NCBI RefSeq assembly: GCF_010092505.1
Contig: NZ_CP048021.1
Span: 1,054,001 to 1,118,000 of the forward strand
Source of the DNA: Virgibacillus sp. MSP4-1
GTDB lineage: Bacteria > Bacillota > Bacilli > Bacillales > Alkalibacillaceae
DNA: 64,000 nucleotides
Direction: 5' to 3'
The position numbers and the translations under genes are program-made. Below the pieces are notes generated by a model. It was given only the letters and a program-made list of their open reading frames with translations, had not been told where the DNA came from and did not search any database. Shown here piece after piece: positions 21,897 to 24,778 of this stretch. Numbering within the stretch: the stretch's first letter is position 1; each line of letters begins with the position of its first letter.

Positions 21897-22139
21897 ATCC
21901 AGCATTCTCCTTTAATAATGGTAAGGGATCAGCGAATAGCTAATTGAGCCGCAACTACTTGGTAATCCCGACTTTGCAGCAAAATACTGTTCCCTATGAA
22001 TGAGCTCACCATTATTATAATAGAATTTGTGATTATAGTCACATAAAACGCTTACTGTCCTATTTTCCAAACGATTATATCCTTTTCTGTTCAATTTTAC
22101 TATAATAAAGAATGAGATATGCTAATGGAGTGATCAATT
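21897..22139. other. Intergenic region upstream of glmS
   Basis: 243 bp. It holds a 60-codon minus-strand reading frame (21912-22094) without a good SD and with no recognisable content, which I do not call. A TATAAT at 22101-22106 on the plus strand could be the glmS -10, but no matching -35 was found. No glmS ribozyme-like sequence was recognised. Confidence 0.4.
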
Positions 22140-23975
22140 ATGAGTGGAATTGTTGGTTATATAGGGAATCGTTCGGCACAGGAAATTTTGATACATTGTT
22201 TAACAAATCTGGAATACCGAGGCTATGATTCGGCAGGTCTTGCGATTTCAAATGGCGATCACATTGAGGTTCGGAAAGAAAAGGGAAGAATTCAGGATTT
22301 GGAAGCATCCTTACAATTGGATACTATGCATAACGGTACTCTTGGTATTGGGCACACGCGATGGGCTTCACATGGAAACCCGTCGGCAGAAAACTCGCAT
22401 CCTTTAACTGACGAACATAAGCAATTTTTCGTCGTTCATAATGGTATTATTGAAAACTACCACGTTTTAAAGAAGGAACTGATATCGGAAGGGTATTCCT
22501 TTAAAACAGATACCGATTCAGAGGTCATCCCTCATCTGCTTTCCAAGTATAATACAGATAATTTTGTTGAAACGGTTCGGATCATATTGCCGATGTTGCA
22601 AGGATCTTTTGCACTTGTGATGATGTCCGCCCTGCATCCGGATATGATTATCGGGATATCTCAGGAAAATCCGCTGATCGTCGGGTTTGGCGAATCCCAG
22701 GCGTATCTTTCTTCAGATATTTCCGCTTTACTTACCTATACGAAAGAGACCTATCCCATAAAAAATAATGAAATGGCCATCTTAACAAGAGAAGATATTA
22801 TGATAGAAACCGTTGATGGCATGCAGGTCCATCCTGATAAAGTAGCCATAGAATGGGACGAGGAAGAATTTTATTTAAATGAATATGATCACTTTATGCT
22901 GAAGGAAATTCTTGAACAGCCGTCTTCTATAAAGAATACGTTAAATAACAGAATTAAAGACAATCAGGTTTATTTACCAGAAGCAGAATTATTTTTTCGT
23001 GAGCATCCCTATGATCAATTTTGTAAAATCGACATCATCGGGAATGGAACTTCATATCATTCCGGAATCATCGGGAAGAGTATTATGGACAAATTATTAT
23101 CATTTCCCGTTGAGGTTTCTCTTTCCTCTGAATTTACATATGAACACGGTAAATTAAGTGAGCACCATTTGGTCATTGTCGTCAGTCAATCCGGAGAAAC
23201 AGCAGATTCACTTACGGCGATTAAAGAGGCTAAAGCAAATGGAGCGAAGACGATTGCGGTAACCAATAACGAACGCAGTAACATTGCACGTCAGGCTGAC
23301 TGCATCATCCCAATGAACGCAGGACCAGAGCTGGCAGTGGCCGCAACGAAAGCCTATACATCTCAAATTACGGTTTTAAGTTTATTATCCATTCATTTAT
23401 GTGAACAAACGGAAGATCCGAGTTCCAACTTTATAAAGGAATTAATAGAAGCTGTTCAATCTTTGCCTGAAATTGTACAGCAAACCTTAGTAATGACTGA
23501 GGATGCCATCGATTCCTTTGCTCAAGTTACAAATGATCAGACAAACTTATTTTTAATAGGACGCGGGCTGGATTATGTACTGGCATTAGAAGGCGCATTA
23601 AAATTACAGGAGGTCGCTTACCTGCATGCTAACGCCTATGCTGCTGGTGAGGTGAAGCATGGAACGATGGCACTCATTACTCCTGGAGTACCCGTTATTG
23701 CACTCGCCACACAGCCCCATTTGAAGGATAAAATGGTAAGTAATATACGAGAGCTTAAAACAAGGGATGGCTATGTTGTTGGAATAACGAATGTCGGGGA
23801 CGATGCGCTGACTGATGTCGTTGATGAAATCATGTATATTCCCGAAACACACCCGTTACTAATGCCCATTGTTGCAGCCATACCGCTCCAGCTCCTTGCC
23901 TATTATTCAGGAACTGTTAGAGGGTATAATGTAGACCGTCCCAGAAACCTGGCTAAAAGCCTGACTGTGGAATAA
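22140..23975 (+). CDS. glmS: Glucosamine-fructose-6-phosphate aminotransferase (isomerizing) with Cys1-to-Ser change
   Basis: 611 aa, full length. Glutaminase domain (about 1-240) with YRGYDSAG, GHTRWASHG, VVHNGIIENY and DTDSEVI, then two SIS domains (GNGTSYHSG about 303, SQSGETADS about 350, GRGLDYVLALEGALKLQE about 477) and the C-terminal RPRNLAKSLTVE. The N-terminus is MSGIVGYIG where every canonical GlmS has MCGIVG: the catalytic N-terminal Cys is AGT (Ser). In-frame TGA lies just upstream, so this is the only plausible start; SD GGAG 9 nt away. Other glutaminase and isomerase residues look intact. By knowledge of C1 mutants the enzyme should be poor at glutamine hydrolysis and may use ammonia, or be a paralogue; this is inference. 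Confidence 0.9.
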   Translation: MSGIVGYIGNRSAQEILIHCLTNLEYRGYDSAGLAISNGDHIEVRKEKGRIQDLEASLQLDTMHNGTLGIGHTRWASHGNPSAENSHPLTDEHKQFFVVHNGIIENYHVLKKELISEGYSFKTDTDSEVIPHLLSKYNTDNFVETVRIILPMLQGSFALVMMSALHPDMIIGISQENPLIVGFGESQAYLSSDISALLTYTKETYPIKNNEMAILTREDIMIETVDGMQVHPDKVAIEWDEEEFYLNEYDHFMLKEILEQPSSIKNTLNNRIKDNQVYLPEAELFFREHPYDQFCKIDIIGNGTSYHSGIIGKSIMDKLLSFPVEVSLSSEFTYEHGKLSEHHLVIVVSQSGETADSLTAIKEAKANGAKTIAVTNNERSNIARQADCIIPMNAGPELAVAATKAYTSQITVLSLLSIHLCEQTEDPSSNFIKELIEAVQSLPEIVQQTLVMTEDAIDSFAQVTNDQTNLFLIGRGLDYVLALEGALKLQEVAYLHANAYAAGEVKHGTMALITPGVPVIALATQPHLKDKMVSNIRELKTRDGYVVGITNVGDDALTDVVDEIMYIPETHPLLMPIVAAIPLQLLAYYSGTVRGYNVDRPRNLAKSLTVE

Positions 23976-24060: not shown

Positions 24061-24366
24061 ATGAAAAAATGGCTAATGACTCTTGGACTTATTACCGGTA
24101 TCATGATAAACCCTGATTTAGCTTCAGCAAAGGAAGATGATCAACCAAAGGGAATTACACATGATTGGGAAAAAGTACATACGTATTCAAAAGAGCACTT
24201 GGTTGACAGCTTCCAAAAGAAAGTGCAGACATTTGTCAGTTATCATTATCATGATTACCATGTTTACCGAACCATTACTGTACACACATACCGCTGTACT
24301 CTTCACGGAGAGTATAAAACGAAAACCCACTTATCGGATAAGCGAGTAGAAAAACAGCCACATTAG
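24061..24366 (+). CDS. Small secreted protein of unknown function
   Basis: 101 aa. Signal peptide MKKWLMTLGLITGIMINPDLASA with cleavage expected after ASA (residue 23); the mature part is hydrophilic and rich in His and Tyr (SYHYHDYHVYRTITVHTYRC about 60-79), with one Cys. No family recognised; it resembles short exported Bacillaceae proteins. The SD GGAAGG lies inside an inverted repeat. Confidence 0.65.
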   Translation: MKKWLMTLGLITGIMINPDLASAKEDDQPKGITHDWEKVHTYSKEHLVDSFQKKVQTFVSYHYHDYHVYRTITVHTYRCTLHGEYKTKTHLSDKRVEKQPH

Positions 24367-24394: not shown

Positions 24395-24778
24395 TTAGAA
24401 AATGACAGGCCCATCCAGAAAAAAGATTCTTTTGACATTCCTAAATTCGAATAATAATACAGTCCCTAACCGTTCTCCCGTTAATTGCTCCCAGGCAGAT
24501 TGATAGAACTCCAACTGAGACTGGTAATACTCTTCCAGTCTCTTTTTATCATCCCTTCTTTTTACACGATCGGTTTTAGAATCAACAATTTTCCATTTGT
24601 GATAGACTTTATATACGAATTCTAAATCTATAATTCCTTTCACATGGAAGGCTTCAACATCATGATTGTGCGCAGCAAAATCATAAACGGCTCTTTTACA
24701 GCAATAAAAAGATGGAACGTCAGGGGGTACCGTTCCATCATGATCATTATCCTTTACTTTTTTTGGCAAGTTCACCAC
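24395..24778 (-). pseudogene. PD-(D/E)XK nuclease domain fragment, AddA/RecB-type
   Basis: Up to 127 codons. The stretch GIIDLEF (about 49-55), then WKIVDSKTDR (about 62-71), then YYQSQLEFYQSAWEQLTGERLGTVLLFEF fits the D...(D)xK...QLxxY core of AddA/RecB/Cas4-like nucleases, with Lys present. The only in-frame start, GTG 24778, lies inside the end of the DUF3231 gene with no SD. A well-placed SD and ATG pair occurs nearby in another frame, which closes after about 33 codons, so a frameshift near the start is possible. I infer a relic or frameshifted small nuclease. Low certainty. Confidence 0.45.

Follow-up and report, generated by a model that had tools for sequence, protein, structure and literature searches.

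Serine serves as the N-terminal nucleophile of an Ntn fold in hydrolases such as penicillin acylase, where its hydroxyl is activated by the alpha-amino group; these Ser-type enzymes belong to families other than the amidotransferases and mature by self-cleavage rather than by removal of the initiator methionine. Class II (Ntn) glutamine amidotransferases are defined by an N-terminal cysteine acting as the nucleophile (according to the accessible portion of PMC7948480), and in the GlcN6P synthase GlmS this Cys1 has been described as the sole catalytic residue at the glutaminase site and as the target of glutamine-analogue inhibitors (available excerpts of PMC9272926). Serine is not an easy substitute, since engineered Cys-to-Ser PurF of E. 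coli has no detectable glutamine activity, with ammonia use remaining, and the same exchange in AsnB abolishes function (excerpts of PMC3261824; changes of Cys1 in asparagine synthetase are also treated in the accessible part of PMC6342913). A natural class II amidotransferase paralogue without the N-terminal Cys, which coexists with a Cys-bearing copy, is the PurF' protein of Crenarchaeota, for which the same excerpts of PMC3261824 propose ammonia use and report Ala or Val at this position in many of the proteins.

The window analysed here is a stretch of 64,000 nucleotides (positions 1,054,001-1,118,000) from the 3.33 Mb single-contig genome of Virgibacillus sp. MSP4-1. It encodes a GlmS homologue, hereafter Ser-GlmS, which likewise lacks the N-terminal Cys and coexists with a Cys copy, and which differs from many PurF' proteins in having Ser, the oxygen analogue of Cys, invariant in 14 proteins (Table 1). 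Its frame opens with ATG AGT GGA ATT, confirming the original prediction that Ser, encoded by AGT, replaces Cys directly after the Met, and the same Ser is found in 13 orthologues. The in-frame TGA (22131-22133) is followed by no Cys codon ahead of the ATG and bears out the related claim that a longer, Cys-containing protein is excluded; together with the Shine-Dalgarno-like GGAGTG directly 5' of the ATG it supports initiation at 22140. By reading, GAGGTG or GGAGTG lies closely 5' of the start at all 14 loci of the clade to which Ser-GlmS belongs (clade A, below).

Table 1. Positions in the window of the Ser-GlmS gene, its elements and the next open reading frame
Feature	Coordinates	Strand	Basis or remark
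Ser-GlmS paralogue	22140..23975	+	ORF, 611 aa with Met (610 after Met removal); ATG at 22140-22142, stop ends at 23975
Shine-Dalgarno-like GGAGTG (22128-22133) and spacer ahead of ATG	22128..22139	+	
Codon AGT = Ser1, at the catalytic Cys1 position	22143..22145	+	
Glutaminase domain (class II GATase, Ntn), residues 1-238 as cut here	22143..22856	+	Pfam GATase_6/GATase_7; alignment to GlmS chains 3ooj, 1jxa, 4amv
Cys19	22197..22199	+	clade A 13/14 (Gly in one); Gly in 11/11 clade B and 27/27 canonical
Arg26	22218..22220	+	kept in 14/14 clade A; His in the second Ser lineage (f78)
Q-loop R73 W74 A75 S76 H77	22359..22373	+	T76S clade-specific; W74 kept in 14/14
Isomerase, two SIS domains, residues 246-610 as cut here	22878..23972	+	Pfam SIS, 2 stretches
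ORF following Ser-GlmS: 101-aa protein whose start resembles a signal peptide by eye	24061..24366	+	

Ser-GlmS shares with described GlmS proteins (TIGR01135; PDB 1jxa, 2j6h, 4amv, 3ooj) the same two-domain architecture and most of the pocket and isomerase catalytic residues. It scores 699.9 bits against the NCBIfam TIGR01135 glmS model (cut-off 418.05) in a full-length match over residues 2-610, also passes the cut-off of NF001484, contains the motifs RWASHG, HNGIIEN and DTDSEV, and aligns along its length with the PDB GlmS chains, of which 3ooj begins with Ala; the alignments to 1jxa and 4amv begin one residue later than that to 3ooj. It departs from these proteins in the Ser at the nucleophile position, in the fixed changes T76S, S401A and K489Q, in G19C (13/14), and in that no ribozyme was found at its loci. 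With Ser1 in place of the N-terminal catalytic Cys1 that marks GlmS, as in 14/14 members of its clade, it also falls outside the strict definition of class II (Ntn) glutamine amidotransferases by an N-terminal Cys nucleophile. A structure prediction from the window protein and one homologue (L039) only had a mean pLDDT of 34, too low for use, and promoter and terminator sites predicted across the window are no more numerous than in shuffled sequence.

A search across the order (397 genomes) with E values up to 1e-142 recovered a single match in each of 27 genomes. Clade A comprises 14 of them, the window's included (63-100% identity; seven genera of the three families f1, f14 and f41), and the 13 orthologues of the window gene, at 63-82% identity, have Ser at position 1 in every case. 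A sister clade B is formed by 11 genomes of families f35 and f36 (44-46% identity), and we assigned two matches at 43% identity to canonical GlmS. In the alignment of homologues that had been suggested as a check, position 1 is Ser in 14/14 clade A proteins and Cys in 11/11 clade B and all 27 canonical proteins examined, the latter being the loci on hand, a subset of the canonical matches. Twelve of the clade A Ser1 codons are AGT and two AGC, and their start codons are ATG (11), GTG (2) and TTG (1). In a tree built without residue 1, clade A is recovered as a single group with support of 100, on a long branch away from the canonical group. Ser-GlmS is a full-length, selected and distinct paralogue with Ser1 fixed, which upholds the earlier suggestion of a paralogue. 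It had been conceded that an alternative nucleophile shown to be normal for the clade would refute the prediction. This holds only by half: Ser is normal in the paralogue clade, whereas the remaining GlmS proteins that we examined do not share it, which strengthens the case.

In the tree, clade B GlmS falls with Ser-GlmS on one side, away from canonical GlmS, yet clade B keeps Cys in 11/11 proteins and at 7/7 loci fetched (L074-L080) occupies one conserved gene cluster of exopolysaccharide type. Judged by eye in one of these loci only (L076), the neighbours there appear to be hydrolase-like, HEAT-like and GlmU-like proteins, a GT2 glycosyltransferase, a response regulator and a UDP-sugar dehydrogenase. 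No operon or gene order is common to all 14 clade A genomes. A plasmid or phage origin of Ser-GlmS found no support among the 753 plasmid and 51 phage records matched, every one of which is below 60% identity. No natural Ser-GlmS came up among the titles and abstract openings retrieved from the open PMC literature, a coverage largely outside subscription journals.

Counting a residue as shared by clades B and C (the canonical proteins) when each has it in at least 90%, we found 26 positions at which clade A is fixed (at least 13/14) for a different residue. Ten of these lie at or before residue 231: C1S, G19C (13/14), T76S, H88L, S122T, Y156F, S176N, L206I, D208N and R231P. Residues R26, R73, W74, H77, H86, N100 (E. 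coli N98), G101 (G99) and D125 (D123) are identical in 14/14 clade A proteins, so that six of the seven glutamine-pocket residues (R73, W74, T76, H77, N98, G99, D123) are unchanged throughout and the seventh shows the conservative T76S; the roles of single residues, including that of R26 as part of the gate, are in part assumed by us. In the isomerase domain K487, E490, H506 and K605 are retained in 14/14, the first corresponding to Lys485 of E. coli, which we take to be a further catalytic residue. The catalytic residues given for the E. coli isomerase are Glu488, His504 and Lys603 (accessible part of PMC9272926). The equivalent of S401 is Ala in 14/14 and K489Q is fixed too, while that of S303 is Ala in 2/14 clade A and 11/11 clade B proteins. 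The claim that the rest of the pocket and isomerase is conserved thus stands for the motifs and for most residues examined, with T76S, S401A and, in 2/14 proteins, the S303 position as exceptions.

The motif GNGTSYH was read correctly in the original prediction, whereas the Cys regarded there as usual at its second position is not so in the order: clade A has N, S or T there, and of the canonical proteins examined 16/27 have Ala and 11/27 Cys. The canonical GlmS of the same genome (2880618-2882417, L001) itself reads AAGTSYH, so that this Cys is missing from the housekeeping enzyme as well, and its lack in Ser-GlmS is ordinary rather than a linked anomaly. Cys19, the sole near-invariant Cys of clade A, was considered as a relocated nucleophile; it is present in 13/14 proteins, yet one (L013) has Gly19 and still Ser1, so that Cys19 is not required.

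The clade A glutaminase domain is under purifying selection. Ten close pairs with more than 78% identity were compared, of which seven had a computable dS and three were saturated, and dN/dS in the seven is 0.03-0.07 for the glutaminase and 0.03-0.13 for the isomerase domain, in agreement with the earlier statement that the gene is not decaying. The internal tree length of clade A is 2.66 and 2.76 substitutions per site for the two domains (about 2.7). On a fixed topology the glutaminase/isomerase ratio of tree lengths is 0.96 within clade A, 1.28 in B, 1.37 in C and 1.01 in D, a second group of Ser proteins from family f78 whose Cys sisters give a ratio of 0.70 on their end branches. On the stems, isomerase change exceeds glutaminase change in clade A (0.97 versus 0.54) and likewise in B (0.39 versus 0.35), C (1.22 versus 0.91) and D (0.17 versus 0.14). 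Positions invariant in B and C together are retained by all 14 clade A proteins at 45/62 glutaminase and 71/107 isomerase sites. Relaxation of the glutaminase domain, as would mark a PurF'-like pseudo-amidotransferase, is not seen in clade A by this gauge, which is a blunt one, since clade D, despite its changed gate, rises only mildly, to 1.01; for the same reason the rate ratio alone is no proof of glutaminase activity.

The genome contains two matches above the glmS cut-off. The second, sought as had been proposed, is a canonical protein with the start CGIVGYIG (2,880,618-2,882,417, the Met lying just before), about 41% identical to Ser-GlmS. All 14 clade A genomes carry such a further GlmS match, complete in 13, all of which begin MC, and partial in G313 (model positions 463-607 only). 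Scanning with Rfam at gathering scores, over all clade A Ser loci but L046 and the canonical partner in every genome but G313, we detected the glmS ribozyme at 13/13 canonical loci and at 0/13 Ser loci. This suggests that Ser-GlmS could be a second GlcN6P source beyond ribozyme feedback. Exact GlnR/TnrA-like and cre-like patterns were absent from the 330 bases upstream of the 14 clade A genes.

A start-pattern search of 398 genomes of the phylum led to a second instance, in family f78 (20 genomes). The pattern was exact, so that other spellings escape it; its Cys/Ser/Thr form matched 256/398 genomes, and in this draw it picked up Ser-GlmS only in four f78 genomes besides that of the window. 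Further Ser matches of the pattern (G130, G562, G555, G723, G704, G592, G413, G630, G446) lack GlmS motifs in their first 12-130 residues, and three Thr matches, when read, were not GlmS. Among the 20 f78 genomes, six have Ser-GlmS, 11 have Cys in the corresponding protein, and three, all drafts of one genus, have no GlmS beyond PurF-like matches (f78 loci: L089-L092, L101-L104, L111). Five of the Ser codons are AGC or AGT and one, in a fragment at a contig end, is TCT; this last codon arose either through a third Cys-to-Ser change or by a switch between Ser codons. With support of 100, the five longer Ser copies group together inside the Cys proteins; the Cys-to-Ser change arose independently in f78. 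This lineage has the same exchange as clade A at the same position and differs from it in its gate, with R26H in 5/5 longer copies and W74L together with T72I in 4/5; the TCT fragment has R26H and retains W74. It also differs in that the Ser copy is the sole GlmS match in 5/6 Ser genomes, the remaining matches being PurF-like, while G714 adds a Cys copy. Absence of GlmS is not proof here, because the genomes are incomplete drafts (the six Ser genomes 84-97% complete, the three without GlmS 77-89%). NagB, sought by family TIGR00502 only and thus not in its SIS-type form NagB-II, had no match in 12/12 f78 genomes tested.

On balance we favour, tentatively and with somewhat less than even confidence, the interpretation that Ser-GlmS is a ribozyme-free GlcN6P synthase which uses Ser1 as a slow Ntn nucleophile beside Cys-GlmS; a shade more cautiously still, the window's clade, and possibly the f78 lineage, may represent natural class II glutamine amidotransferases with an N-terminal Ser as the glutaminase nucleophile and a retuned pocket. 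Removal of Met would place the N-terminal Ser where Cys1 normally lies, and its hydroxyl, with the alpha-amino group activating it in the manner of the Ser-type Ntn hydrolases, would attack glutamine in a pocket slightly retuned by T76S and its neighbours. The ammonia released would then reach the isomerase site by way of the channel with its retained Trp74 and yield GlcN6P (a link of Trp74 to the ammonia channel is given in the available part of PMC7948480). Because the Ser copy lacks the ribozyme, it would supply GlcN6P while the canonical gene is switched off. We lean towards glutamine still being bound, given the intact gate and pocket. The conservation of Ser1 in 14/14 proteins over about 2.7 substitutions per site counts in favour of the Ser-nucleophile interpretation, because a codon released from constraint should have drifted; so do the unchanged pocket residues, the low dN/dS and the tree-length ratio of the glutaminase domain, the missing ribozyme and the second Cys-to-Ser change in f78. 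Against it stand the failure of serine in engineered PurF and AsnB and the bluntness of the rate ratio, and the pocket can persist for glutamine binding without cleavage.

The main competing explanation, which we consider somewhat less likely, is an ammonia-dependent GlcN6P synthase in which Ser1 would be inert, free NH3 would enter and react with Fru6P in the isomerase site, and the glutamine pocket would serve as a structural or allosteric gate. It draws on the ability of E. coli PurF without Cys1 to use ammonia (excerpts of PMC3261824) and on the independent f78 lineage, whose changed gate would be expected from ammonia use and whose Ser copy is the sole GlmS found in 5/6 Ser genomes, with TIGR00502 NagB matching 0/12 of the f78 genomes tested. 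GlcN6P synthase is, however, described as an exception within its subfamily, one that does not use ammonia (accessible part of PMC9272926), and the window's clade, unlike f78, keeps Trp74, Arg26 and, T76S apart, the glutamine-binding residues. Since gate and pocket are intact and the Ser itself is held, a Ser nucleophile seems a slightly better guess than ammonia for the window's clade. A regulatory or otherwise non-canonical paralogue, which would bind glutamine uncleaved and tune Cys-GlmS through mixed oligomers, or whose isomerase half would carry out another sugar-phosphate reaction, is in our view improbable: a second GlmS in 14/14 genomes (13 full, one partial), the greater change of the isomerase domain on the stem and the fixation of S401A and K489Q agree with it, but K487, E490, H506 and K605 are conserved in 14/14 and the cut-offs of TIGR01135 and NF001484 are passed. 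A point against the favoured reading too is that the isomerase changed more on the clade A stem and that S401A and K489Q are fixed, so that the sugar substrate might differ.

Still less probable is an extra GlmS favoured by selection because it resists natural glutamine analogues that attack thiols, those of the anticapsin/bacilysin type. Anticapsin acts on Cys1 by alkylation and FMDP forms a covalent bond with it (excerpts of PMC9272926), so a serine copy could escape, and a Ser nucleophile as favoured above would likewise be expected to be less sensitive to thiol-directed analogues. Yet no gene order is common to the 14 genomes, so that, by this measure only, no linked antibiotic cluster stands out; no Cys copy was found in 5/6 f78 genomes with a Ser copy; and activity would still need a Ser-nucleophile or ammonia mechanism. 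That the serine is an artefact of a base error or a wrongly called start, or the mark of a decaying pseudogene, is hardly conceivable: nothing speaks for it beyond the single-base difference between AGT and TGT, while the start position is conserved, dN/dS is about 0.05, and the agreement of 14/14 genomes on Ser rules out a sequencing error or wrong start.

A conserved Ser form implies either that Ser works in this fold or that GlmS was rebuilt for ammonia, which it reportedly does not use. Of the two Ser lineages, the window's clade retains the gate and f78 has altered it; the pair amounts to a natural experiment separating glutamine binding, hydrolysis and channel gating. Annotation by family models hides the Ser/Cys difference, because the models call both lineages plain glmS.

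The 101-aa protein encoded downstream of Ser-GlmS has no Pfam or NCBIfam match. It is present in 5/5 of the family f1 Ser-GlmS genomes, adjoining the Ser-GlmS gene in 4/5, and in 0/7 f1 genomes tested without Ser-GlmS, 0/9 f14/f41 Ser-GlmS genomes and 0/2 others. Further along, a 1090-aa S. kushneri protein with a PDDEXK nuclease domain is represented by a remnant only; the rest of it and its neighbours (810 and 237 aa) have no match in the window at E 1e-5, and the remnant (72 aa at 56%) lies at 24473-24688 on the minus strand, inside a 127-aa ORF.
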